Shown piece after piece: positions 8,839-64,000 of a stretch of DNA of 64,000 nt. The stretch is from Prauserella rugosa. Lineage in GTDB: Bacteria > Actinomycetota > Actinomycetes > Mycobacteriales > Pseudonocardiaceae. Under the pieces are notes generated by a model that was not told where the DNA came from, searched no databases, and was given only the letters and a program-made list of their open reading frames with translations. The translations under genes were made by a program, and so were the position numbers. Numbering within the stretch: the stretch's first letter is position 1; each line of letters begins with the position of its first letter. The stretch spans positions 62,001 to 126,000 of the forward strand of contig NZ_JOIJ01000010.1 of assembly GCF_000719975.1 (NCBI RefSeq). Reading direction: 5' to 3'.

Positions 8839-9103
8839 CCTCGCCGAACACGCAGCGCGGCCGGGGTGCGCCCGGTGGAGTGATATCCGTGCACTAAGGG
8901 CTTTGAGTTGGGCCGAAAGCGGCGAGAGCTCCTACCCTTGTCCGGGTGAGCATTTCGAGGGGCATCCCACGCGCTGCATGTTGCAGCGCACGTGCAAGCT
9001 GCCGTGCAGCTGCGCGTGCTCCCCTCGCATCGCCACCTGCTCCATTCGGGCGGAACCGGACAGATCTGTCGTCAGCAGGCGCGCGAGGAGGGGTCACCAC
9101 CGC

Positions 9104-49912: not shown

Positions 49913-51778
49913 TCACTCCACCGTGACGGACTTGGCGAGGTTGCGGGGCTTGTCGACGTCGTAACCGCGGGTGCGCGCGATCTCCGCGGCCAGCACCTGC
50001 AGCGGCACCGTGGACACCAGCGGCTGCAACAGGGTCGGCACCGCGGGCACCTCGATGAGCTCGTCGGCGAAGGGCCGCACCGTCTCGTCGCCCTCCTCGG
50101 CGATGACGATCGTGCGCGCGCCGCGGGCCTGGATCTCGCTGATGTTCGACACGAGCTTGGCGTGCAGCACCGCCCTGCCCCGCGGGGACGGCATGACCAC
50201 GACGACCGGCAAGTCCTTCTCGATCAGCGCGATCGGGCCGTGCTTGAGCTCGCCCGCGGCGAAACCCTCGGCGTGCATGTAGGCCAGTTCCTTAAGCTTG
50301 AGCGCGCCTTCGAGCGCCACCGGGTAGCCCACGTGCCTGCCGAGGAACAGCACCGCCTTCGAGTCGGCCAGCCGCGCACCGAGGTCGCGCACCTGGTCGA
50401 CGGTGGTGAGCACCTGCTCGACGGCCTTCGGCATCGCCTCCAGGTCGGCGAACTCGCGGCCGACCTCGTCGGGATACTTCGTGCCGCGGGCCTGCGCCAG
50501 CGCCAGTCCGACGAGGTAGTTGGCCGCGATCTGGGCGAGGAACGCCTTCGTCGAGGCGACGCCGATCTCCGGGCCCGCGTGCGTGTAGAGCACGGCGTCG
50601 GACTCACGTGGGATCTGCGCGCCGTTGGTGTTGCAGACCGCGAGGACCCGGGCGCGCTGCTCGCGGGCGTGGCGGACGGCCTCGAGCGTGTCCATCGTCT
50701 CGCCGGACTGGGAGACGGCCACGACGAGCGTGTCCCGGTCGAGCACCGGGTCGCGGTACCGGAACTCGCTGGCCAGCTCGACCTCCACCGGCAGGCGGCA
50801 CCAGTGCTCGATGGCGTACTTGGCGACCAGGCCGGAGTGGTAGGCCGACCCGCAGGCCACGACGAAGACCTTGTCGATGTCGCGCAGATCCTGGTCGGAG
50901 ATGCGCTGCTCGTCGAGGACGATGCGGCCGCCCGCGAAGTGCCCGCGCAGCGAGTTTGCCAGCGCGTCGGGCTGCTCCTCGATCTCCTTGAGCATGAAGT
51001 ACTCGTGGCCGCCCTTCTCGGCGGCCGACAGGTCCCAGTCGACCGTGAACGGCTTGCCCTGCGCGAGCTCGCCGTGGAAATCGCTGACCTCGTAGCCCTC
51101 GCGCGTGATCGTGACGAGCTGGTCCTGACCCAGCTCGACCGCCTCACGGGTGTGCTCGATGAACGCGGCGACGTCGGAAGCCACGAACGTCTCCCCCTCG
51201 CCGACGCCCACGACGAGCGGCGAGGACCGGCGAGCGGCGACGATCATGTCGGGGTGGTCGGCGTGCGTGACGACCAGCGTGAACGCGCCCTGCAACCTGC
51301 GGCAGACCGCGCGGACGCTCGCGGGCAGGTCGCCCGCCGCATCCGGGTCCTTCTCGTAGGCGCGGGCGATCAGGTGCGCCGCGGTCTCGGTGTCGGTGTC
51401 ACTGGCCAGGTCGATCCCGTCGGCCTCGAGCTCGGCCCGCAACTCGGCGAAGTTCTCGATGATGCCGTTGTGCACCACGGCGACGCGCTGCGAAGCGTCC
51501 CGGTGCGGATGCGAGTTGCGGTCGACCGGCGGACCGTGGGTGGCCCACCGGGTGTGCCCCATCCCGGCCGTGCCCTCGAACCGCGACCTCCCGGCCTCGT
51601 CGAGCGCCGCCTCCAGGTTGGCGAGCCTGCCCGCCTTCCGTTCGACGGTCAGCGAGCCCGCTCCGTCGAGCACGGCGACACCCGCCGAGTCGTAGCCGCG
51701 GTATTCCATGCGTCGCAGGCCACCGAGCACCACGTCCAGTGCTTTCCGGTGCCCGACGTATCCGACGATTCCACACAC
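49913..51778 (-). CDS. glmS: Glutamine-fructose-6-phosphate aminotransferase
   Basis: 621 residues. The N-terminal nucleophile is Cys2 in MCGIVGYVGHRKALD, RRMEYRGYDSAGVAVLD follows in the glutaminase domain, and the isomerase domain has two SIS folds: VVACGSAYHSGLVAKYAIEH and VLFLGRHVGYPVALEGALKLKE. It makes glucosamine-6-phosphate for peptidoglycan, with GlmM in this window doing the next step. No glmS ribozyme is seen upstream. It is the first gene of the run glmS-nnr-alr-hydrolase-tsaE, and a palindromic element lies in its upstream region. Confidence 0.96.
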   Translation of the reverse strand: MCGIVGYVGHRKALDVVLGGLRRMEYRGYDSAGVAVLDGAGSLTVERKAGRLANLEAALDEAGRSRFEGTAGMGHTRWATHGPPVDRNSHPHRDASQRVAVVHNGIIENFAELRAELEADGIDLASDTDTETAAHLIARAYEKDPDAAGDLPASVRAVCRRLQGAFTLVVTHADHPDMIVAARRSSPLVVGVGEGETFVASDVAAFIEHTREAVELGQDQLVTITREGYEVSDFHGELAQGKPFTVDWDLSAAEKGGHEYFMLKEIEEQPDALANSLRGHFAGGRIVLDEQRISDQDLRDIDKVFVVACGSAYHSGLVAKYAIEHWCRLPVEVELASEFRYRDPVLDRDTLVVAVSQSGETMDTLEAVRHAREQRARVLAVCNTNGAQIPRESDAVLYTHAGPEIGVASTKAFLAQIAANYLVGLALAQARGTKYPDEVGREFADLEAMPKAVEQVLTTVDQVRDLGARLADSKAVLFLGRHVGYPVALEGALKLKELAYMHAEGFAAGELKHGPIALIEKDLPVVVVMPSPRGRAVLHAKLVSNISEIQARGARTIVIAEEGDETVRPFADELIEVPAVPTLLQPLVSTVPLQVLAAEIARTRGYDVDKPRNLAKSVTVE

Positions 51779-52029: not shown

Positions 52030-52842
52030 ATGGCCAAGGCGAAGCAGTTGCTCGAGGACCTCACCTTCGCGGGACCGCACGAGGTGCTGCGCGGCGACCT
52101 GGCGCTGGTGGGCCAGCCCGGCGTGGTCTACACGCCGAAGGAGGGCCGCGCGCTGCCCGCCGTCGCGTTCGGGCACGGCTGGCTGCAGCCCGCAGGCCGC
52201 TACCGTGAGCTGCTGCGACACCTCGCGAGCTGGGGCATCGTCGCGGCCGCCCCCTCGACGCAGCGTGGACCGCTGCCGTCGCATCGGCTGTTCGCCGACG
52301 ATCTGCTCTCCACTCTCGAGATGGTGACGAACGTCCGCCTCGGTCCGGGCGCCATCAGCGTCGATCCCCTCAAGCTGGGCCTGGCCGGGCACTCGACCGG
52401 TGGCGGCGCCGCCGTGTTGGCCGCCGCGAAGGCCCCGGCGGTGCGCGCGGTGGCCACGTTCGCCCCCGCCCAGACGATCCCGTCGGCGTCCAGGGCCGCC
52501 GAGCAGGTGGAATGCCCCGGCATGCACCTCGCGGCCGACGACGACCTGGTCGCGCCCGCGCAGGGCAACGCCGAGGTCATCACGCGTGCCTGGGCGGGAC
52601 CGGCCCAGTTGCGCACCCTGCCGAAGGCCTCGCACCTCGCGGTGGCCGAGGGATCGCACTGGAGCCAGCTGCTCGTGCACGGCAAGCCGCACCGGGCGAC
52701 GCAGCGCACCGTGCGCGCCCTGTTCACCGCGTTCTTCCTCACGCACCTGACGGGCACCGACAAGTATCGGCCGCTGCTCGACGAGAGCGTGAAGGCCGCG
52801 AAGATCGTCGACCTCGACGAGAAGGAGAAGGCCGCCCACTGA
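52030..52842 (+). CDS. Alpha/beta hydrolase, dienelactone hydrolase-like
   Basis: 270 residues. PAVAFGHGWLQPAGRYREL holds the oxyanion HG motif, the nucleophile Ser is in LGLAGHSTGGGAAVLAA (about residue 124), Asp in HLAADDDLVAPAQGNAE and His in LPKASHLAVAEGSHW. The family is like plasma-membrane-associated dienelactone hydrolase/lipase proteins; substrate unknown. TAATCT ends seven bases before the ATG at 52030 and there is no Shine-Dalgarno, so translation is probably leaderless. It is divergent from glmS and convergent with the acyl carrier protein gene. Confidence 0.84.
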   Translation: MAKAKQLLEDLTFAGPHEVLRGDLALVGQPGVVYTPKEGRALPAVAFGHGWLQPAGRYRELLRHLASWGIVAAAPSTQRGPLPSHRLFADDLLSTLEMVTNVRLGPGAISVDPLKLGLAGHSTGGGAAVLAAAKAPAVRAVATFAPAQTIPSASRAAEQVECPGMHLAADDDLVAPAQGNAEVITRAWAGPAQLRTLPKASHLAVAEGSHWSQLLVHGKPHRATQRTVRALFTAFFLTHLTGTDKYRPLLDESVKAAKIVDLDEKEKAAH

Positions 52843-52863: not shown

Positions 52864-53127
52864 TCAGGCCTCCAGCACCTCACCCAGCACGTCGTGGACA
52901 CCCCGCAGGTGGACCAGCCGCGCGAGGTGGTCCTCGTCGATCCGGACGTCGAACTCGACCTCCAGGTGTGAGAGCAGTTCGAGCAGGTCCATCGAGTCGG
53001 CGCCCAGGTCGTCGACGAACCGCGACTCGAGGCCGACCTCCGACGGCGGGACGTCGAGCACACGGCACACGATCGCCTTGATCTCGTCGGCCCTCCCGCT
53101 GATCGCCGCGTTGCCGTCGGAGGTCAT
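52864..53127 (-). CDS. Acyl carrier protein of the type VII-like module
   Basis: 87 residues with an acyl-carrier fold: IKAIVCRVLDVPPSEVGLESRFVDDLGADSMDLLELLSHLEVEFDVRI. The phosphopantetheine Ser is in GADSMDLLEL (about residue 46). Its start overlaps the preceding gene by four bases (ATGA), and it ends module B. No ketosynthase, acyltransferase or other lipid or polyketide gene is near, so it is not part of an obvious biosynthetic operon. It may carry an acyl group in modifying the module proteins. The housekeeping fatty-acid ACP normally sits with fabD/fabF, so this is probably a dedicated copy. Confidence 0.85.
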   Translation of the reverse strand: MTSDGNAAISGRADEIKAIVCRVLDVPPSEVGLESRFVDDLGADSMDLLELLSHLEVEFDVRIDEDHLARLVHLRGVHDVLGEVLEA

Positions 53128-53561
53128 GTCAGATACGTCTCGTTGCTGAAGTCGTCGTCCTCGTCGCGCGGGGTCACCGTGCGCGCGGTCTGGGGAGGCG
53201 GCACCTCCTCGGTGACGTCGGCGCCGGTGTCGTCCTCGACGCCGAAGGTGAGCACGTTCTCCTCGCCGGCGCGGGAACGTTCGATGGCCCAGCCGCTCTG
53301 CGCCCGCGCACGCCTGCCCAGTTCGGCCAGGTGCTGCGCGGCGCGCTCGGCCACCAGGCCCCGCTTCGTCAGGCTCTCCGAGGCCTGCCGTTTCGCCTCG
53401 GCCGCCCTGCGTTCGCGCAGCGCACGACGGTCGGCCAGTTCGCGGTTGATCTGGTCGAACCGGGCCAGCGCGGCCGCAGCCCTGTTCCCGCCCGCGGTGT
53501 TCCCACCTGCTGTGCCGTGTCCTGCCGTGCCCTGTCCTGTCGTGCCTGTCGAGTCAGCCAC
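53124..53561 (-). CDS. Charged coiled-coil protein, module B
   Basis: 145 residues. After a Gly/Thr low-complexity start is a helical, Arg/Glu-rich segment (ALARFDQINRELADRRALRE, then EAKRQASESLTKRGLVAE), and a highly acidic tail ending DEDDDFSNETYLT. It is the counterpart of the module A gene at 56630, which has the same helix-then-acidic-tail layout and ends DEDFANRDWFV. It lies between the large Gly-rich protein and the acyl carrier gene, with the start after GAGGAG. A chaperone or adaptor for the large protein is the simplest guess; no family is recognised. Confidence 0.7.
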   Translation of the reverse strand: MADSTGTTGQGTAGHGTAGGNTAGGNRAAAALARFDQINRELADRRALRERRAAEAKRQASESLTKRGLVAERAAQHLAELGRRARAQSGWAIERSRAGEENVLTFGVEDDTGADVTEEVPPPQTARTVTPRDEDDDFSNETYLT

Positions 53562-53576
53562 CGTGTCTCCTCGGCA

Positions 53577-56072
53577 TCACTTGTCGTACTTCACGGGCGG
53601 CTGGCGCTCCTCGCCGATGGTGCCGCTGATCGCCTTCGGGGTCTCGGAACCGTCGAACAGCTGGCCGTCGATGCGGTAGCTGGCGCTGCGGTTCTGCTCG
53701 CCGCCCTGGCCTGCGCCCGCGCCGGCTGCACCCATCGGGGCGCCCATCATGCCGCCGCCCATCATTCCGCCACCGCCGCCGGACGCCCCGGCTGCCGCGG
53801 GCGCGCCGCCCGGGGCCGGAGCCGCCGGTGCGGCACCACCGCCGCCGGGCGTGCCGGTCGTGGCGCTGGTGCGCGAGCCCTCGTCGAGCGGCTGGGCGTC
53901 CGCGCCGGGAGCCGCCGCGGCGATACCGCCTCCTGCACCGCCGACGTCTCCGCCTCCTCCGAGGGAGCCGGTGAGGCTTCCGGACGTCGAAGGCGCGGAC
54001 GGGGTCTGCACGTCGGCGCTACTTCCGGCACCACTGTCGGCACCGCTGTCGGACGTGCCGCCGCCGAACGGGTCGGGTAGCTCGATGCCGTCCTCGGTGG
54101 CCGGCGGCTGCGCTGGCAGCGGGCGGAGACCGTCGATGTCGCTGCCGGTGTCGCCGTCGCCGAAGCCGTCGAGCGTGTAGGTGGTGGGTTCGCCCGTGCC
54201 GTCGTCGACCGTCACGAGCGTCGGGCCATCGGGGCCTTCGGGCTGCTCGGCCACGATCGTCAGGTTGCCGTCCTCGATGCGGATCTTGCCGTCCGGTCCC
54301 GGCCGGTACACCTTCTCGGCCGGGTCACCGCCCTGCGGGCCGAACTCACCACCCTCGGCATCGCCGTCGTCTGCGGTGCGGGCGTCCCGGTCGCCGGTGC
54401 CGAAGTCGAGCTCGTACTGGGCGGGCTCGCCGGAGCCGTCGTCGACGGTGATGCCCATCCGGCCTTCGGCGTCGGGTTCACCGATCTCGAGCTTCTTGTC
54501 GCCCTGCTCGACCGTGAGCGTGCCCTGCTCGTCGTCGCCGCGCAGGAAACCCGGATCGGCGGTGCCGTCGGTACCGTCGTCCCTGGAGCCCTCGCCGAGG
54601 ATGTCGCCGACGTCGGGGGTGCCGGCGCCCGGCTTGCCGTCGTCGCGGCCGTCGGGACGCCTGCCCGGGGTGAGCCCGTCGAGGTCGGGCTGCGGGGTGT
54701 CGATCTTCGGCATCGACGGTGCCGACGGGCTCGTGCCTGCGCCGGAACCTCCACCGGGCCCGCCGGTACCCGCTCCCGAGCCGCCCACACCGGACGTGCC
54801 GGTACCCCAACCGGTACCTGAGCCGTTGCCCGTTCCGGGACCGGCACCCGCGTCGATGCCGGGATCGTGGCTTCCGCCGGGCACTCCCGGGTTCTGCGGG
54901 TCGCCCTGACCAGCGCCGTCGCTGGGGAAGTCGTTGCTGTACTCGCCGAGATACTTGTTGAGCGTGGTGTAGGCCTCGTCGACGGCTTCCTTCGTCGAGT
55001 CGCACAGTGACGTGAACGCCGAGTAGAGGTTGTCGTAGAGGTCGACGTTCCACGACTCGCGGATCCACGCCTTGCACTCGCGGATGACGAGCTGTTTGTT
55101 CTCGTCGTTGAGGTCGCAGTTGTCGTGGCGCATGGTGGATTCGATGTTGGTGCCGCACTGGGCGTCGATCCACGCGGCCACCTCGAGCACCTGGTCCTGG
55201 CTGTCGAACTCGCCGCGGGCCAGCGTGACGACCTTCTGCGCGATCTCCGGGGTCGCGGCGCCAACGGTCGGCGAGTACAGCCGAGTGACCTCCTCGGCCT
55301 TGCTGCGCACAGCGTTGAACACGGACTCCACCGCCCGCTCGATGACCGCGGCGGCTCCCTCCACATGGGACACGAGGTCCTTGGCCGGCGGATCGATGTC
55401 CTCGCTGTACTTCTGGTACGAGGCGTTCGCGGCGTCGCCGGTCCAGTCGCGGTAGAGCGCGTTGAGGTCGTCCTCGGTGCTGGAGCGGAGCTCGCTGAGC
55501 GTGCCGTGGGCCTTGCGCAGTGCGTCGGCGTCGTCGAGAAACTTCTGGAAGTCGATGCCCGCCTGTTCCCAGTAGCGCTCGCGGATGTCGGAGGCGTAGT
55601 CCAATGGGCCGTCGATGTGCTGCGAGTCGGCTGGCACCTGCGCGTCGATGGGCAGGAACTTGTGGAACGTGTCGAGCCCGTCCTTGGCGAGTTCGAGCAG
55701 CTCGTCGGACGTGGTGTAGCCCGTGCTGCCCGTTCCGAGGGTCGCCTCGTCGAGTTTGCCGCGGTTCTCGTCGAGTTCGGACTCGATCTGGCTCGACCGG
55801 TAGCCCTTCTCCTCGGCTTCGGCCCGCGCGTCCTCGTACGGGTCGGCCGACCGGTCGTAGGGTCGACGGCGATCGTCCCAGATGGGATCCGCCCAACCCG
55901 GCCTGACGTTGTACTTCTCGTAGTAGGCGTCGGCGGCGGAGTCGTTGTCGCCGCGCAATGAGTAGTGTTTCAGGACGGCCTGTTTGGTCTCGGCGGAGAC
56001 GTGCGGATCGTCGAGGAGCTCCTTGGTCTCGGCCCAGGTGTACTCGGGCTCCCTGCTGAAGATGCCGGTCAC
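53577..56072 (-). CDS. Large type VII-like protein with Gly-rich C-terminus, module B
   Basis: 831 residues. An N-terminal helical, acidic domain (YTWAETKELLDDPHVSAETK, GYTTSDELLELAKDGLDTFH) is followed by an ESX-type helix-turn-helix region with a WTG motif (NALYRDWTGDAANASYQKYS, about 230-250). A Gly/Ser/Pro-rich linker precedes two beta-type repeats (TLTVEQGDKKLEIGEPDAEG and KIRIEDGNLTIVAEQPEGPD, each ending in a VDDGxGEP segment) and a Gly/Met-rich end, GGGGMMGGGMMGAPMG, then SASYRIDGQLFDGSETPKAI. No toxin domain. GTG 56072 overlaps the previous gene by four bases. It is paralogous to the module A protein at 57114. Confidence 0.78.
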   Translation of the reverse strand: MTGIFSREPEYTWAETKELLDDPHVSAETKQAVLKHYSLRGDNDSAADAYYEKYNVRPGWADPIWDDRRRPYDRSADPYEDARAEAEEKGYRSSQIESELDENRGKLDEATLGTGSTGYTTSDELLELAKDGLDTFHKFLPIDAQVPADSQHIDGPLDYASDIRERYWEQAGIDFQKFLDDADALRKAHGTLSELRSSTEDDLNALYRDWTGDAANASYQKYSEDIDPPAKDLVSHVEGAAAVIERAVESVFNAVRSKAEEVTRLYSPTVGAATPEIAQKVVTLARGEFDSQDQVLEVAAWIDAQCGTNIESTMRHDNCDLNDENKQLVIRECKAWIRESWNVDLYDNLYSAFTSLCDSTKEAVDEAYTTLNKYLGEYSNDFPSDGAGQGDPQNPGVPGGSHDPGIDAGAGPGTGNGSGTGWGTGTSGVGGSGAGTGGPGGGSGAGTSPSAPSMPKIDTPQPDLDGLTPGRRPDGRDDGKPGAGTPDVGDILGEGSRDDGTDGTADPGFLRGDDEQGTLTVEQGDKKLEIGEPDAEGRMGITVDDGSGEPAQYELDFGTGDRDARTADDGDAEGGEFGPQGGDPAEKVYRPGPDGKIRIEDGNLTIVAEQPEGPDGPTLVTVDDGTGEPTTYTLDGFGDGDTGSDIDGLRPLPAQPPATEDGIELPDPFGGGTSDSGADSGAGSSADVQTPSAPSTSGSLTGSLGGGGDVGGAGGGIAAAAPGADAQPLDEGSRTSATTGTPGGGGAAPAAPAPGGAPAAAGASGGGGGMMGGGMMGAPMGAAGAGAGQGGEQNRSASYRIDGQLFDGSETPKAISGTIGEERQPPVKYDK

Positions 56073-56398
56073 AGTCCGCTCCCTGAGTTCGTGGCCGCCT
56101 GGGCCTGGGTGTCCTCGGCCGAGCCGTACCGGCTGCCCGCGGCGCCGATGGTCGAGGCGAACGAGGTGAGCGCCGAGCACATGGCCTGTGCGGCCTCGCC
56201 GATGGTCTGGATGCCCGCGGTGTAGTCGCCCGCGAAGCCGGTGTGGGCATTGCCGAACCCCGCTTCGGCGACGTTCGACGTGCCGACGTCCTTGACGTCG
56301 TCGAGTGCGCCGTCGGCGGCGTCGCTGATGTTCGTGGCCCGGCTCGCCATGGAGCTCTCGTCGACGGTGTATCCGTCCGGTGCGTTGACTCCGCTCAC
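56069..56398 (-). CDS. Small EspC/WXG100-like type VII protein, module B
   Basis: 109 residues, helical. Features: VDESSMASRATNISDAADGA, then EAAQAMCSALTSFASTIGAA and RYGSAEDTQAQAA, where YGSAE gives the YxxxD/E export signal of type VII substrates near the C-terminus. It is slightly longer than WXG100 proteins and closer to the EspC family in size. GTG 56398 has GGGAG five bases upstream; an earlier GTG is possible. It overlaps the large gene by four bases. Together with 53577 it should form a co-expressed pair, perhaps exported by the nearby ESX-4 system. Confidence 0.72.
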   Translation of the reverse strand: MSGVNAPDGYTVDESSMASRATNISDAADGALDDVKDVGTSNVAEAGFGNAHTGFAGDYTAGIQTIGEAAQAMCSALTSFASTIGAAGSRYGSAEDTQAQAATNSGSGL

Positions 56399-56520
56399 GG
56401 CTCCCACCCCCTGTGTCTGCTGTCGTCTGTGACTACGACGTCGGCGAGGCCCGGTCGGTGCCGTCGCATATGCACACGAAATGTACCGGCACGGGGTTTT
56501 TCGGGGCGGGTCCCACGACA

Positions 56521-56562
56521 GCAGAGCACCCGCCCGGAGGAACGTCCGGACGGGTGCTCTGC
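56521..56562 (-). terminator. Hairpin between the two modules
   Basis: GCAGAGCACCCG (56521-56532) and CGGGTGCTCTGC (56551-56562) pair perfectly over 12 bp with a further TCCGGA/GGAGG-like pairing inside. It lies 68 bases after the stop of module A and separates it from module B, whose first gene starts at 56398. No U-tract is obvious. Confidence 0.7.
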
Positions 56563-56629
56563 GGTGGTCGAGTCGGGTGCTGCCGGCAGGCGGAGTGCTG
56601 CTCAGCCGGTGGGGCTCAGACGGTGGTGT

Positions 56630-57091
56630 TCAGACGAACCAGTCGCGGTTGGCGAAGTCCTCGTCGTCGTCCTCGTCGCGACGGGGACGACGGTGCTTCG
56701 CCTGCGACGGCTGCGCCGATTCGGACGCCGGCAGCGGGGTCGGCACCGTGGTTTGCTGCGGCGGCGACGACTGCGTGGACTGCTGCGCGTCGGCAGCCTC
56801 GTCGAGCTCGTCGGCCCCCGGCCCGAAGTTCATCGTGCGCTCCCCACCGTCCCGGCGGTTCAGCCACTCGTTCTTCGCGTTGGGGTCTTCGCGGGCAGCA
56901 CGGTTCTCGGCTGTTTTCGCGTCGAGCTCCTTACTCAGCTCCTCGGCCTGCTGCCGCCGCTCCTCGGCCCGCTGAGCCAACGCGCGCTCGTACTGCGTCG
57001 CACGTTCCTGTGTCTCGGCGACGGCGGCCTCGTATCGCGCTCGAATCGAGGCAAGCTTGTCCAGCAGTTTCGGGCTGGCTTCCCCGGTCAT
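56630..57091 (-). CDS. Charged coiled-coil protein, module A
   Basis: 153 residues from ATG 57091 (GGAGG seven bases upstream). The N-terminal half is a continuous charged helix (KLLDKLASIRARYEAAVAET, QRATQYERALAQRAEERRQQ region, EELSKELDAKTAENRAARED), typical of a coiled coil. The C-terminal half is Gln/Ser/Pro-rich and ends HRRPRRDEDDDEDFANRDWFV. The layout matches the module B gene at 53124, with a similar acidic stretch before an aromatic end. It follows the large protein after a 22-base gap. No known family; an adaptor role is speculative. Confidence 0.72.
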   Translation of the reverse strand: MTGEASPKLLDKLASIRARYEAAVAETQERATQYERALAQRAEERRQQAEELSKELDAKTAENRAAREDPNAKNEWLNRRDGGERTMNFGPGADELDEAADAQQSTQSSPPQQTTVPTPLPASESAQPSQAKHRRPRRDEDDDEDFANRDWFV

Positions 57092-57113
57092 CTCGTTTCC
57101 TCCACTCACCCGA

Positions 57114-60100
57114 TCAGCGACTGAACGGCAGCACGACCGGAGTGTCCTCGCCCAGTGCGCCGCTGATGCGTTCGTTGGACGGGGTGGCGTCGAACAGTTC
57201 GCTCACCGCGTCGAGGACGAACTGACTCTGGCGGTCCTGGTCGTCGCCACCACCGCCGCCTCCGCCGGCTGCGCCCATGCCGCCGCCCATCATGCCGCCG
57301 CCACCGCCTGCGGCGGCGGAGCCGACGCCACCCGAGCCACCGTCGTTGCCCTGGCGTTCCTGCTCCTGCTCGATGCCCGGGGTGTCGGCGAGACTGCTCT
57401 CGCCGGTGGGGTCACCGCCACCGCCCAGTGCATCGCTGGGCATGGCCTGAGCTGGGGAGGTCGCGTCGTTGGCCGCTGGGGCGGTCGAGTCGGACGCCTG
57501 TTCCTCGGGTCCGGACGCCTCGAATCCGGACGACTCGGCTTCGGATGCCGCGGAGACAGGCGCGTCGGCGCCAGGGCCGTCGGAAACCGGGCCGTCGGAG
57601 ACCGGGCCCGCGTCGGCGGGCAGGTCGCCGCCGGTCGAGGCCATCGGACCACCGCCGAGGTCACCCTGCATAGCGCCGGAATCTCCAGCGCCCGCCGCGC
57701 CGGAGATGTCGCCCTGCAGTGCTCCCGCATCGCCTGCCGCGGCCGCGGCCGGGCCTGCCTGCGCCGCTGCCGATGCCGTGTCGCCACCGAGGTCGCCGGA
57801 CTGGACGCCGCTGGTTCCGGGGTCGGGCGCACCGCCACCCATTGCGGTATCGCCCATGTCCGGCCCGGCCATGCCCGCTGCGCTCATACCCGCAGCCGAG
57901 GCGGGGGCGGCGCCGCCGGTGGCCCGCAGCGGACCGTCGCCGTCCGGGCCACCCGCCATGCCCGCTCCGCTCGCACGCATGCCGTTGCCACCTGCGGCGC
58001 TGGAGCCGGTGGTTTCGCTGTTCTCCTCACCGAGGGTGTAGGTGGTGGGCTCGCCCTTGCCGTCGTCGACGGTCACCGTCGTCGGGCCGTCGGGGCCGTC
58101 CGGCTGTTCCGCGGTGATCTTGAGGCCGTTCTCCTCGATGCGGATCTTGCCATCCTCGTCGGGCGTGTAGACCTGTTCGCCCTTCGAGCCGTCACCGGCG
58201 GAGCCTTCCGGGCCGAAGTCCTGTGCGCCCTCGGCCTGGCCGGGCCCGCCGCCGGCCTGCCCGCTCGGCTGCGCGCCGCCCGAGGCCTCGTCGCCCGCGC
58301 CGGGCCCGTTTCCGTCGCCGGATTCGTTGCCGTCGCCGGAGTCGTTGCCGAAGTCGAGTTTGAAGTCCTTGCCGGGCCCCTCGCCGTCGGCGACGGAGAT
58401 CTCCATCTCGCCCTTCTCGTTGGGCGCGACCAGATCGAGCTTGCGGTCCCCCTGTTCAACGCTCAGGGTCTCGCGCTCGGGGCCGTCCTTGACGGCCTCG
58501 CCGGTCTCCGGGTCGATCGGGTACGGCTCACCGGTTTCGGGGTCAACCTCGGCCTTTTCACCGGTCACAGGGTTCTCGACGTCGCCCTGACCACCGGGCT
58601 TGGGCCCATTCGCCAGATCCGGCCCTGCACCACCCGCACCCGGGCCACCGCCTGCTGCATCTCCACCGCCGGCATCAGCAGGGCTGGTGGCCGCGGTCGG
58701 TGGCGTCGACATGCCACCGCCACCGACGGGCGGGGCACCACCCGCGGGGGGAGCGCCCCCGCCGGGGGGTGCGCCGCCTACGGGCGACCCACCAGCGGAC
58801 TGCGGAGGCGTTGCCGTTTGCTGTTCAGGACCAGGACCAGCGTCCCCACTTTTTCCTTCCTTCTCTCCGAACGCCTCACCGAGGTGCTCGTTCAAGGTCT
58901 CGATCATCGAGGTGTAGTGATCCTGGATCGCGGCAACACCCTCGGAGCCGTAACCGTGGAACTCCTGACACTTGGCGTCGTACGCCGCCATGAATTCCCG
59001 GAGAGCGGTCTCAGCAGCGTTCTTACACTGCTCAGCCTTCTTGAGCTCCTGCTCCATGTTGTCTTCATTGATCTCACCCTCGAAGGTGTACCCGAGGATA
59101 TTGAAGAATGGAGTAGGAAACGTTATTCGAGGGTCGCCTAGACCAAAGAACCCACCATCGAAAGCCGCCACAGCAATATCATCACCCCAGCTCCGGCCCT
59201 CAACCTTTCCTTTAGCCTCCTGGATCTGAGCCTTTCCCGCGGGAAAATCATCGAGGAACCGAATATACTTGTCGACGTCAACTGGGACGATTCCATTGAT
59301 ACGGCCGTTTCCGTACATGTTCAGGACTTGCCTGGCGTAGTAGACGACGCAGTCGCGGACACCGTCTATACCGGCACGGAGGTCGCCCGGAGCCGACCGC
59401 AGGGCTTGTGAGAGCTCCCCCATATTCTGGTTCAGTTCGTCATTGCGCTGAGCCGCAGCCGACTTCGCGTCGCCCAGCCAATCCGACGTACCATCCTGCC
59501 AAGACTTCCTGACAGCCTCGTCGAACTCATCGAGCGATTTTCCGGCCCGCTCCAGCATCGAAGCGTCACCATGAAATGTCCCGAACACGATTCCACGAAA
59601 CTCGTCAAGGCCATTCCGGATGTCGTCCGGGGTGTTTCCACTGGCCGAGTACTGGGCACCACCCGCACCCTCGCCCTCACCGGATGACTGTTTACCGGCA
59701 GGCTCGGGATACCCCTCGTCCGGCTGCTGCTGCTGCTGCGATCCGCCGGCCTGGCCGACCTTGTCCTGCGCTCTCAGATACTTGGGATAGAATTCGTCGA
59801 ACAGCTGCACCCCGGGCTCAGCTTCGTCGATAATCTCGTCCGAGGTACTGAACCCCTGGGAGTCGTCGAGGTTCTTCTGAGCCTTGTCGATCTTTCCCTT
59901 GTGGGAGTCGCGCTGTGCTACACGGTAGGCGCGCTTGGCGTTGTCGAGGTTGGTGTCGACATCGTCGCCGCCTTCCTTCAGGCGGTCAGCGTCGTAGCCG
60001 TACTTGTTGGCGTACTTGTCGATCTCGGCATCGCTGACCATCCCGGCGTTCGACAACGCCATGAGCATCTGACCACGATCGGTGTCGTTGATGTTGGGAT

Positions 60101-60329
60101 CGTCCAGCAGATCTCGCATACCGTTCAGATCGCGATCGCTGAACTTGTCCGTCGCAGCTTCGACTTGATCGTCGTCGATCTCGCCCTTGGTCCCGGGCGT
60201 GACCCAGTCATCGCCCTGGTTCCGCCGATGGGCTGTAGGTGTATCCGCGAAAGAGGATCCCCCCTGGCCAAGTGGCGTAGGACCATCAGAATCCCGGTTG
60301 TCACGGTCCCGAATACGACTGTTGGCCAT
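57114..60329 (-). CDS. Very large type VII-like protein, module A
   Basis: 1071 residues, the largest gene here. An N-terminal acidic helical domain has DLNGMRDLLDDPNINDTDRGQML and GFSTSDEIIDEAEPGVQLFDEFYP, matching module B. A helical region follows with RKSWQDGTSDWLGDAKSAAAQ (about residue 290), the WXG-like turn. Then a Pro/Gly linker (GGAPPGGGAPPAGGAP), two beta-type repeats (LSVEQGDRKLDLVAPNEKGE, KIRIEENGLKITAEQPDGPD), and a long Gly/Ala/Met end with GGGGMMGGGMGAAGG and a final ELFDATPSNERISGALGEDT. The DNA for about the N-terminal half is visibly less G+C-rich than its surroundings. It overlaps the 60329 gene by one base (TGATG). It sits where Rv3439c lies in Mycobacterium. Confidence 0.78.
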   Translation of the reverse strand: MANSRIRDRDNRDSDGPTPLGQGGSSFADTPTAHRRNQGDDWVTPGTKGEIDDDQVEAATDKFSDRDLNGMRDLLDDPNINDTDRGQMLMALSNAGMVSDAEIDKYANKYGYDADRLKEGGDDVDTNLDNAKRAYRVAQRDSHKGKIDKAQKNLDDSQGFSTSDEIIDEAEPGVQLFDEFYPKYLRAQDKVGQAGGSQQQQQPDEGYPEPAGKQSSGEGEGAGGAQYSASGNTPDDIRNGLDEFRGIVFGTFHGDASMLERAGKSLDEFDEAVRKSWQDGTSDWLGDAKSAAAQRNDELNQNMGELSQALRSAPGDLRAGIDGVRDCVVYYARQVLNMYGNGRINGIVPVDVDKYIRFLDDFPAGKAQIQEAKGKVEGRSWGDDIAVAAFDGGFFGLGDPRITFPTPFFNILGYTFEGEINEDNMEQELKKAEQCKNAAETALREFMAAYDAKCQEFHGYGSEGVAAIQDHYTSMIETLNEHLGEAFGEKEGKSGDAGPGPEQQTATPPQSAGGSPVGGAPPGGGAPPAGGAPPVGGGGMSTPPTAATSPADAGGGDAAGGGPGAGGAGPDLANGPKPGGQGDVENPVTGEKAEVDPETGEPYPIDPETGEAVKDGPERETLSVEQGDRKLDLVAPNEKGEMEISVADGEGPGKDFKLDFGNDSGDGNESGDGNGPGAGDEASGGAQPSGQAGGGPGQAEGAQDFGPEGSAGDGSKGEQVYTPDEDGKIRIEENGLKITAEQPDGPDGPTTVTVDDGKGEPTTYTLGEENSETTGSSAAGGNGMRASGAGMAGGPDGDGPLRATGGAAPASAAGMSAAGMAGPDMGDTAMGGGAPDPGTSGVQSGDLGGDTASAAAQAGPAAAAAGDAGALQGDISGAAGAGDSGAMQGDLGGGPMASTGGDLPADAGPVSDGPVSDGPGADAPVSAASEAESSGFEASGPEEQASDSTAPAANDATSPAQAMPSDALGGGGDPTGESSLADTPGIEQEQERQGNDGGSGGVGSAAAGGGGGMMGGGMGAAGGGGGGGDDQDRQSQFVLDAVSELFDATPSNERISGALGEDTPVVLPFSR

Positions 60330-60640
60330 CAGAGCTCCGCCCCCTTCGACGCGATGGTCTCGGTGCTGACCGTCTCGCCGTCCTTGTAGGCCTTACCCGC
60401 CTGCGCCATCTTGTCGCCGAGCCCGGAAGCCTCCGCACCACATTTGTTCACTGCGTCCCGATACTTGCTGATGGCGTCCACGTACGACTTGGCCACATCG
60501 GCCCACGCTTTACCGACCTTCTCGGAACTGACGTTCGTCTCGATCTTGCTGCCGGCGGTTTTCAGTTCCTCGCCTTCGTGCGCATAGGCCTCGCCCGCCG
60601 CACGCAGACCGTCCGCGTTTACTTGCTGTCCACCAGACAT
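60329..60640 (-). CDS. Small WXG100-like protein, module A (Rv3440c-like)
   Basis: 103 residues, two-helix layout. Helix 1 is VNADGLRAAGEAYAHEGEEL, the turn region has SSEKVGKAWADVAKSYVDAI with a WxD instead of WxG, and helix 2 ends GDKMAQAGKAYKDGETVSTE. YKDGE gives a YxxxE export-like signal. Size and position beside glmM match Rv3440c, placed between glmM and glmS in Mycobacterium, close to the ESX-4 genes. GGGAGG precedes the ATG. Probably first gene of the module A operon, with a promoter near 60744-60773. Confidence 0.75.
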   Translation of the reverse strand: MSGGQQVNADGLRAAGEAYAHEGEELKTAGSKIETNVSSEKVGKAWADVAKSYVDAISKYRDAVNKCGAEASGLGDKMAQAGKAYKDGETVSTETIASKGAEL

Positions 60641-60865: not shown

Positions 60866-62212
60866 TCACGCCACCGCCGCGACGACCCCCGCCAGCCTGT
60901 CCGCCGCCGCCTGCGCCGTGGCCTCCGCCTTCGCCTCGACCATCACCCGGACGAGTTGCTCCGTGCCCGACGGCCGCAGCAGCACCCGGCCCTCCTCGCC
61001 CAGCTCACTGGTCACCGCGTCCACGGCCTCGCGCACCGCCTCCGACGCAGCCACCGCCGCCTTGTCGGCCACCCGCACGTTCACCAGCACCTGCGGCAAC
61101 CGTTCCATCACCGCGGCCAGCTCGGCCACCGGCTTGCCCGTCGCCGCCGCCCTGCTCATCAGGCGCAACGCCGTCAACAACCCGTCGCCCGTCGTCGCGT
61201 GCGCGGGCAACACGACGTGGCCGGACTGCTCGCCACCCAGCGCGAACCCGCCCGCGCGCAACTCCTCCAACACGTACCGGTCACCGACCGCGGCCGTCCG
61301 CAACGCGATGTCGTGCTCCTTCATCGCCAGGTGCAGGCCCAGGTTGCTCATCACCGTGGCCACGAGCGTCGTGTGCGTCAGTTCGCCCCGCTCGGCCATG
61401 TCCAGGGCCAGCACGGCCATGATCTGATCGCCGTCCACCAGGTTGCCCTCGCCGTCGACGGCCAGACACCGGTCGGCATCACCGTCGTGCGCAATCCCCA
61501 GGTCGGCGCCGTGTTCGACGACCGCGGCCTGCAACTGTTCCGGATGGGTCGACCCGCACCCGTCGTTGATGTTGAGCCCGTCCGGTTCGGCATGGATCGC
61601 GACGACCTCCGCGCCCGCCTTCCGGTAGGCCTCGGGCGCAGCCACCGACGCCGCACCGTTCGCGCAGTCCACGACCACCTTCAGCCCCGCCAGGGAGTGC
61701 GGCGTCGCGGCGACCAGATGCGCCACGTAGCGGTCGAGCGCGTCCGCGGCGTCGCGCACCCTGCCGATCTCCGACCCCGTGGGACGCGGCGGCACCTGCG
61801 TCACGTCCGCGCCGAGCAGCGCCTCGATCTCGTCCTCGATGCTGTCGGGCAGCTTGTGCCCACCCTCGCCGAACAGCTTCAGACCGTTGTCCGGCATCGG
61901 ATTGTGCGACGCCGAGATGACCACGCCGAAATCGGCGTCCAGGTCACCGACGAGGAACGCCACCGCGGGGGTGGGCAGCACGCCGACGCGCACCACGTCG
62001 GCGCCCGCCGAGGTCAGCCCGGCGACCACCGCCGCCTCCAGCATCTCGCCGCTGGCCCGCGGGTCGCGGCCCACCACAGCCACCGGACGGTGCGATCGGT
62101 CGTGGGCAGCGAGCACGCGAGCCGCCGCCGCGGCCACCGACAACGCCAGTTCCGGCGTCAGCTCACTGTTCGCGAGACCGCGCACGCCATCGGTGCCGAA
62201 CAGGCGGGCCAT
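60866..62212 (-). CDS. glmM: Phosphoglucosamine mutase
   Basis: 448 residues, normal length. [20 protein letters not shown] is the family N-terminus, the phosphoserine loop is [14 protein letters not shown] (about residue 102), the metal site [14 protein letters not shown], and the sugar and phosphate loops EQSGHVVLP and [15 protein letters not shown]. It converts glucosamine-6-P to glucosamine-1-P after GlmS. GGAGG lies four bases before the ATG. It follows the ribosomal genes rplM-rpsI on the same strand, as in other actinobacteria, separated by a repeat array and a terminator. Confidence 0.96.
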
Positions 62213-63885: not shown

Positions 63886-64000
63886 TCAGCCGAACATCCC
63901 CTGGATGCCCTTCTCCGTGCCCTGGTAGCCGTCGGCGATCTGCGGCAGAGCGGTGGCGATCTGCGCGAGAACCTGCTTGAGCTCCTCGAGCGACTGGTTC
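63886..64000 (-). CDS. WXG100-type ESX protein, C-terminal fragment
   Basis: 37 C-terminal residues are inside the window, NQSLEELKQVLAQIATALPQ followed by IADGYQGTEKGIQGMFG, and the gene continues past the right edge. This is a WXG100 helix 2 with the small ESX C-terminus. Position immediately upstream of rplM-rpsI identifies the ESX-4-type esxT/esxU pair (Rv3444c-Rv3445c). It shows that the type VII system lies next to the unusual modules at 52.9-60.6 kb. Confidence 0.85.
   Translation of the reverse strand, partial: NQSLEELKQVLAQIATALPQIADGYQGTEKGIQGMFG

Follow-up and report, generated by a model that had tools for sequence, protein, structure and literature searches.

What do two repeated gene sets with giant proteins, lying between the cell-wall precursor genes glmM and glmS of Prauserella rugosa, produce, and why do they sit beside a type VII secretion cluster? 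The DNA analysed (the window) is a stretch of 64,000 nucleotides from contig NZ_JOIJ01000010.1, positions 62,001 to 126,000. Between glmM and glmS it encodes set A and then set B, each made up of a small protein, a giant and a coiled-coil protein (coil), and after them an acyl carrier protein (ACP), all seven on the reverse strand. A preliminary description, made from the letters alone, had proposed a duplicated system of type VII-like modules, related to secretion or the cell surface and lying next to ESX-4. Duplication (as old paralogues), type VII relationship and proximity to ESX-4 all stand; the products look like cargo of ESX-4 itself and not like a system of their own. The reading preferred here, which as a whole has about an even chance of being right, is that each set encodes a PE/PPE-like heterodimer exported by ESX-4 and that the B-type pair is in addition acylated and anchored in the envelope. 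Export of the pair is the probable part; acylation of a protein is somewhat doubtful. The module is not described in the literature searched.

Two old and recurrent gene sets

The two modules have the same gene order, as first described, and blastp identifies their giants as true paralogues, with 47% identity over the beta region (E 1e-28) and 22% over the N-terminal half (E 5e-13). The coils have in common only a C-terminal stretch (E 0.05), a tail that recurs in 95/99 coils against a shuffled mean of 6.0, and the small proteins are 16% identical, each carrying the reported YxxxE near its end. In a tree of 102 giant N-terminal halves, built by a quick method and with long branches flagged (L015_1, L065_4, L081_12 and others), giant A belongs to a clade of 26 rows (support 98) and giant B lies outside it, in a clade of 13 (support 99). 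Because Prauserella and Amycolatopsis loci hold both kinds, the split predates this strain; A and B are old paralogues that did not arise by a recent duplication in place.

Scanning named genomes with an alignment of 21 giants returned 136 relatives, and the best 80 loci were kept. They come from Prauserella, Amycolatopsis, Saccharomonospora, Actinophytocola, Qaidamihabitans, Solihabitans, Saccharopolyspora and metagenome-assembled genomes. The loci were picked by their giant, so that module rates describe these loci and not random genomes, and genes were called with our own simple gene caller. Once ESX-4 proteins and three WXG toxin-like proteins had been removed, 101 small proteins, 103 giants and 99 coils remained. 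The three-gene order recurs: a complete small-giant-coil set is present in 97/107 giant-labelled rows, window included. The ten incomplete rows comprise the three toxin-like proteins swept in (L027, L041, L063), four with a contig-end cut or an uncalled neighbour (L013, L077, L078, L086) and three lacking a partner (L015, L032, L085).

A split signal of PE-PPE type

Small protein and giant carry complementary motifs. YxxxD/E on the former and WxG on the latter occur together in 98/101 gene pairs (80 loci plus the window). WxG is found in 100/103 giants but only 4/101 small proteins, and YxxxD/E occurs in 18/103 giant heads, below the 56 of shuffled sequences. The two motifs read as the halves of a split signal of PE-PPE type, and the small protein and giant head would form a heterodimer that bears the composite signal. 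The WXG-type helical region attributed to the giants was located in giant B as a long hairpin: its two helices span residues 175-209 and 213-265, and WTG (210-212) lies at the turn between them. The predicted giant head resembles PPE41 and the predicted small protein resembles PE25 or Esx hairpins, with weak Foldseek E-values. The likeness to PE25-PPE41 covers adjacent small and large genes, the placement of both motifs, the predicted folds and a long C-terminal extension. The module differs in adding a helical N-terminus, a beta domain and a third, coiled-coil gene, in having ESX-4 as the neighbouring machine, in lacking an EspG gene at the locus and in the absence of Pfam PPE matches from 50 giants.

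Pfam PPE matches 0/50 giants at E 0.01, and it weakly matches 6/45 small proteins. Because of this negative result the family is not classed as PE/PPE, although its motifs and predicted fold suggest that it functions in the same manner. The WXG100 profile PF06013 scores 12.9 to 21.8 bits on the four window proteins, short of the cut-off of 27.3, both small proteins of the window being sub-threshold Pfam matches, and other family members reach E 1.8e-7 and 7.3e-8. Giant A as a single sequence has no match in PDB. The best PDB rows of giant profile A2 are linker artefacts, with ESAT-6 and EsxB at 0.021-0.046 in the right place, and the top row of small profile A3, a cytochrome trimer (3.7e-8), was taken as a helix artefact. 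Five Pfam families each match 1/33 coils, taken as chance, and a possible YbaB-like nature of the coils found no support in any result.

No EspG-family gene (PF14011) lies on the glm contig of the window genome, and nine matches are spread over several other contigs of this genome, which has a single EccB. A single ESX-4 machine may therefore handle dispersed substrates that are served by EspG.

Linkage to ESX-4

The reported co-location with ESX-4 is confirmed, the cluster beginning at the end of the window. EccB (PF05108) is single in the window genome and in each of three congeners, and the window-genome copy, about 12.7 kb from glmM, belongs to ESX-4. GlmM was found in 101/101 genomes of the order, and the site was fetched in the window's own genome and in 40 of the remaining 100, a non-random choice that spans families. 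Among these 41 genomes a pair is present in 19/19 with EccB at most 40 kb from glmM; of the 22 with no EccB near glmM, two have a clear pair and three are ambiguous. The association has a Fisher p of 9e-10, or 3e-7 with the ambiguous cases, values that overstate it since the two families concerned are non-independent. In one genome (G056) EccB lies 30 kb away and may not be of ESX-4.

A glm-site gene accompanies the module in 51/80 loci and is missing from 29/80. Two of the latter are short contigs, and the other 27 fall by shared genes into 10 neighbourhoods, none with an ESX-4 gene on its locus map except for an hsp70-like fragment in L038. Linkage to ESX-4 therefore does not recur with every copy of the module; it belongs to the glm site. 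Large toxin-like proteins with WXG domains are present as well in three of the off-site loci (L027, L041, L063).

ESX-4, which is the one type VII machine identified in the window genome, would recognise the composite signal and export the two proteins as a folded pair. The giant's disordered linker, together with its beta domain and tail, would then be displayed at the cell surface, and the coiled-coil protein, with its fixed acidic-aromatic tail, may act as a dedicated chaperone or docking factor. ESX-4 has been described as the ancestral ESX cluster (PMC4791881). The M. abscessus ESX-4 substrates EsxU and EsxT resemble the present pair in their WXG100-type hairpins and in lying on the same chromosomal island; they differ in that both are about 100 aa and that EsxT reportedly lacks YxxxD/E (PMC10117145). 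The export repertoire of ESX-4 is little known, and a conserved neighbouring pair with a full signal, in strains in which no type VII machine other than ESX-4 was found, makes the question directly testable with no need for a pathogen.

A shorter pair at the same site in mycobacteria

A clear pair lies between glmM and glmS in 13/13 genomes of the window's family. A second family has it in 8/12, three being ambiguous (G006, G019, G070) and one (G077) having none, and no pair is labelled at the site in 16/16 genomes of other families. Three of the calls in the second family were made partly by eye: only the giant is labelled in G039 and G084, and that of G091 was recognised by sequence and not by profile. 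The giants read there range from 426 to 564 aa in length. With the giant-head profile L105 gives E 8.5e-33 and L104 3.5e-24, and weaker matches come from L103 (9.9e-9), L101 (4.4e-6) and L102 and L123 (about 1e-4); TPC[EQ]IAAD ends 6/7 of those printed, L105 excepted. A search with the L103 giant returned 985 proteins, the named ones among the 120 listed being from Mycobacterium. Among the matches listed are an M. tuberculosis hypothetical protein (P0149) with 74% identity, as well as proteins annotated as alanine and proline rich from M. haemophilum, M. nebraskense and M. kansasii.

On position and annotation, we take P0149 to be Rv3439c and its small neighbour to be Rv3440c, a pair that is probably the shorter mycobacterial version at this site. 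The preliminary description had placed this pair here, and head profile and site indeed make it look homologous. It has the same location, a small protein and a WxG head, and differs in its shorter giants and in that no coil and no ACP is labelled in the loci read. The publications found that name Rv3439c or Rv3440c include none on secretion by title.

The position at the site has another possible meaning, namely that the proteins remain cytoplasmic and form a scaffold near the cell-wall precursor genes glmM and glmS, the WXG-like fold being no export signal. This is quite improbable. The place between glmM and glmS is constant in the surveyed window family, and a review connects Rv3439c, as Ppr2, with the Rip1 PDZ domain by yeast two-hybrid (PMC6963305), which is no proof of export. 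Against a scaffold speak the complementary split signal, the linkage to ESX-4 and the 29 loci that have no glm-site gene, of which three adjoin toxin-like WXG proteins.

An acyl carrier protein and chain-making enzymes

The B-type sets are mostly linked to acyl-carrier genes. ACP-linked rows make up 68/76 outside the A clade, window included, and 0/26 inside it. The window ACP exceeds the PF00550 cut-off (4.7e-13) and has its phosphopantetheine serine in a DSM motif; DS is kept in 57/68 ACPs, and in the remaining 11 the motif was read as having TS or SS. Two arrangements occur. In Amycolatopsis genes for a ligase and an ACP lie upstream of the set. There are 53 complete sets of this kind and two further cases, one with both in a single open reading frame and one cut by a contig end. 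In Prauserella, Qaidamihabitans, Actinophytocola and A. arida the set is followed by an ACP and two ketosynthase genes, KSalpha and KSbeta (11 complete sets, and a partial one in L013). Coil and ACP overlap by 4 nt in 11/11 relatives. The arrangements are seen at the glm site and in 7/10 other neighbourhoods, with B-side giants only.

The top PDB rows of the single ligase examined (L033) include FadD32, FadD23 and FadD28, and its best NCBIfam rows are fatty acyl-AMP ligases (FAALs), below curated cut-offs; by sequence it appears nearer to FAALs than to CoA ligases. The L012 ketosynthases are nearest to PDB 6kxd, KSalpha matching chain A (E 7.5e-155) and KSbeta chain B (E 2.1e-57). We take 6kxd to be the Iga11-Iga12 pair of ishigamide; the module differs in that no ketoreductase or dehydratase genes are labelled in it. 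KSalpha has TACA[AS]GN and both His motifs in 12/12, and KSbeta a Cys-free motif, placed by reading, in 11/12 rows, L010 being unmatched. FAAL-type and KS-type ACPs have a mean identity of 35%, and one housekeeping ACP is 21 and 27% identical to them; the ACP tree is too short to separate one recruitment from two.

The B-type pair would be served by its own ACP, loaded in relatives by a FAAL or by a ketosynthase/chain-length factor (CLF) pair. As the pair has no membrane helix (none in 101/103 giants), the acyl chain most likely modifies the pair itself and would act as envelope anchor. If true, a type VII cargo tied to acyl-carrier chemistry would be a new way to hold giant proteins at the surface.

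The chain could also have another destination. The mycobacterial PPE1-FadD10-Rv0100-Nrp cluster for a diisonitrile chalkophore, in which we presume Rv0100 to lie, likewise groups a PPE protein with an ACP and a fatty-acid enzyme of the adenylate-forming type. Under copper starvation PPE1, FadD10 and Nrp are individually required, and PPE1 has been speculated to act in chalkophore transport (PMC9600254). By analogy, the acyl genes may make a free lipid or lipopeptide building block that the PE/PPE-like protein transports or stores, and both arrangements do centre on an ACP, though the chain would be made by a FAAL in one and by a ketosynthase/CLF in the other. This is rather unlikely. That cluster differs in having a nonribosomal peptide synthetase, and its PPE1 is predicted to cross the membrane several times (PMC9600254), in contrast to the giants without membrane helices. 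The eight largest neighbour-gene families listed off the glm site, the neighbours not being individually annotated, are each confined to one syntenic group, so that no further enzyme travels with the off-site module.

It is improbable, too, that the pair is exported as described with the acyl genes as operon neighbours of no shared function. They are lacking in 31/97 complete triads. The window genome has no close KSalpha (the best, elsewhere in the genome, are 44 and 36% identical), and a congener (L089) has the A set only, with B set, ACP and ketosynthases missing together. Against mere adjacency stand the two arrangements at the glm site and in most other neighbourhoods, the invariant coil-ACP overlap and the restriction to B-side giants. 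The missing KSalpha and the state of the congener fit a unit in decay in this lineage, and the window ACP seems, from these comparisons, to be the remnant of a recurrent ACP/FAAL/ketosynthase association.

Apparent exchange of heads in A-type sets

Close relatives differ sharply in part of the A set. Giant A and P0040 are 40% identical in the head, 98% in the beta region and 91% in the tail, and P0036 and P0041 are 45, 87 and 90% identical. Between P. salsuginis (L009) and P. alba (L011) the A set shows 59% identity in the small protein and 44% in the head, with 88% in the beta region, 93% in the C-terminal 75 residues, 85% in coil A and 97% in glmM. The corresponding B-set values are 87 (small), 91 (head), 83 (beta) and 97% (C-terminal 75), and B-type comparisons have no such step between head and rest. 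These comparisons cover six loci and a few database proteins; small-protein values for L089 (18 to 20%), obtained with a wrongly chosen protein, are excluded. On the simplest interpretation, some A-type sets have apparently had small gene and giant head replaced together, which argues for a matched pair. The window A set as a whole is more divergent from its relatives than the window B set, with identities of 45-62% for the small protein, 42-46% for the head, 67-73% for the beta region, 53-59% for the tail and 52-66% for the coil, so that the case for exchange depends on P0040, P0041 and the P. salsuginis comparison.

Toxins are common among the large WXG-domain proteins of type VII systems, and three modules adjoin toxin-like ones. 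A polymorphic toxin with the coil as immunity protein is nevertheless very improbable and was rejected: sharp differences between close relatives lie in the head, not at the C-terminus, and neither Pfam nor NCBIfam gave a match to a toxin domain, whose absence was first noted for the giants. A wider proposal, unlikely to hold in every part, is that the glmM-glmS pair is an old PE/PPE-type cargo of ESX-4 from Pseudonocardiaceae to mycobacteria, the B-type being lipid-modified with its own ACP and chain-making enzymes and the A-type swapping head and small partner between close strains.

Layout of the locus

Table 1. Features of the glmM-glmS region in window coordinates
Feature	Position	Strand	Remarks
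esxT 3′ end, first ESX-4 gene	63886..64000	-	remaining ESX-4 beyond window
glmM	60866-62212		
Small protein A, 103 aa, WXG100/EsxB/PE-like, YxxxE	60329..60640	-	sub-threshold WXG100, EspC and PPE matches
Giant protein A, 1071 aa, with helical WxG head, linker, beta region and a tail rich in Gly and Met	57114..60329	-	
Beta region of giant A, residues 618-766	58032..58478	-	47% identity to giant B
Coiled-coil protein A, 159 aa, acidic/aromatic C-terminal tail	56630..57109	-	
Small protein B, 112 aa, YxxxE	56069..56407	-	predicted helices 17-38, 53-109
Giant protein B, 831 aa	53577..56072	-	GTG start overlapping small B stop
Predicted PPE-like domain of giant B, residues 160-384	54921..55595	-	WxG 210-212 in long-hairpin turn
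Beta domain of giant B, residues ~516-636	54165..54527	-	two runs of four strands
Coiled-coil protein B, 145 aa	53124..53561	-	
Acyl carrier protein, 87 aa	52864..53127	-	DSM motif kept; ATGA overlap with coil B
Alpha/beta hydrolase	52030-52842	+	between seven-gene block and glmS; convergent with module
glmS	49913-51778		

The longest reading frame of giant B would start at 56180; the GTG at 56072 is the best placement. Upstream of glmM lie rpsI and rplM and then ESX-4, of which the window holds the last 115 bases only, the rest having been read on the same contig. EsxT, EsxU, an Hsp70-like protein, EccC and EccB were recognised upstream of rplM, and two forward-strand genes between EccC and EccB are taken by position as EccD and MycP. 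The Hsp70-like protein (720 aa, L006:2788-4950), between EsxU and EccC, is labelled in many related loci. The alpha/beta hydrolase is labelled at the glm site even where the pair is absent (L111). In Actinophytocola oryzae (L015) an extra family giant without a small partner follows position 9010, between KSbeta and glmS, in the place where the hydrolase usually sits.
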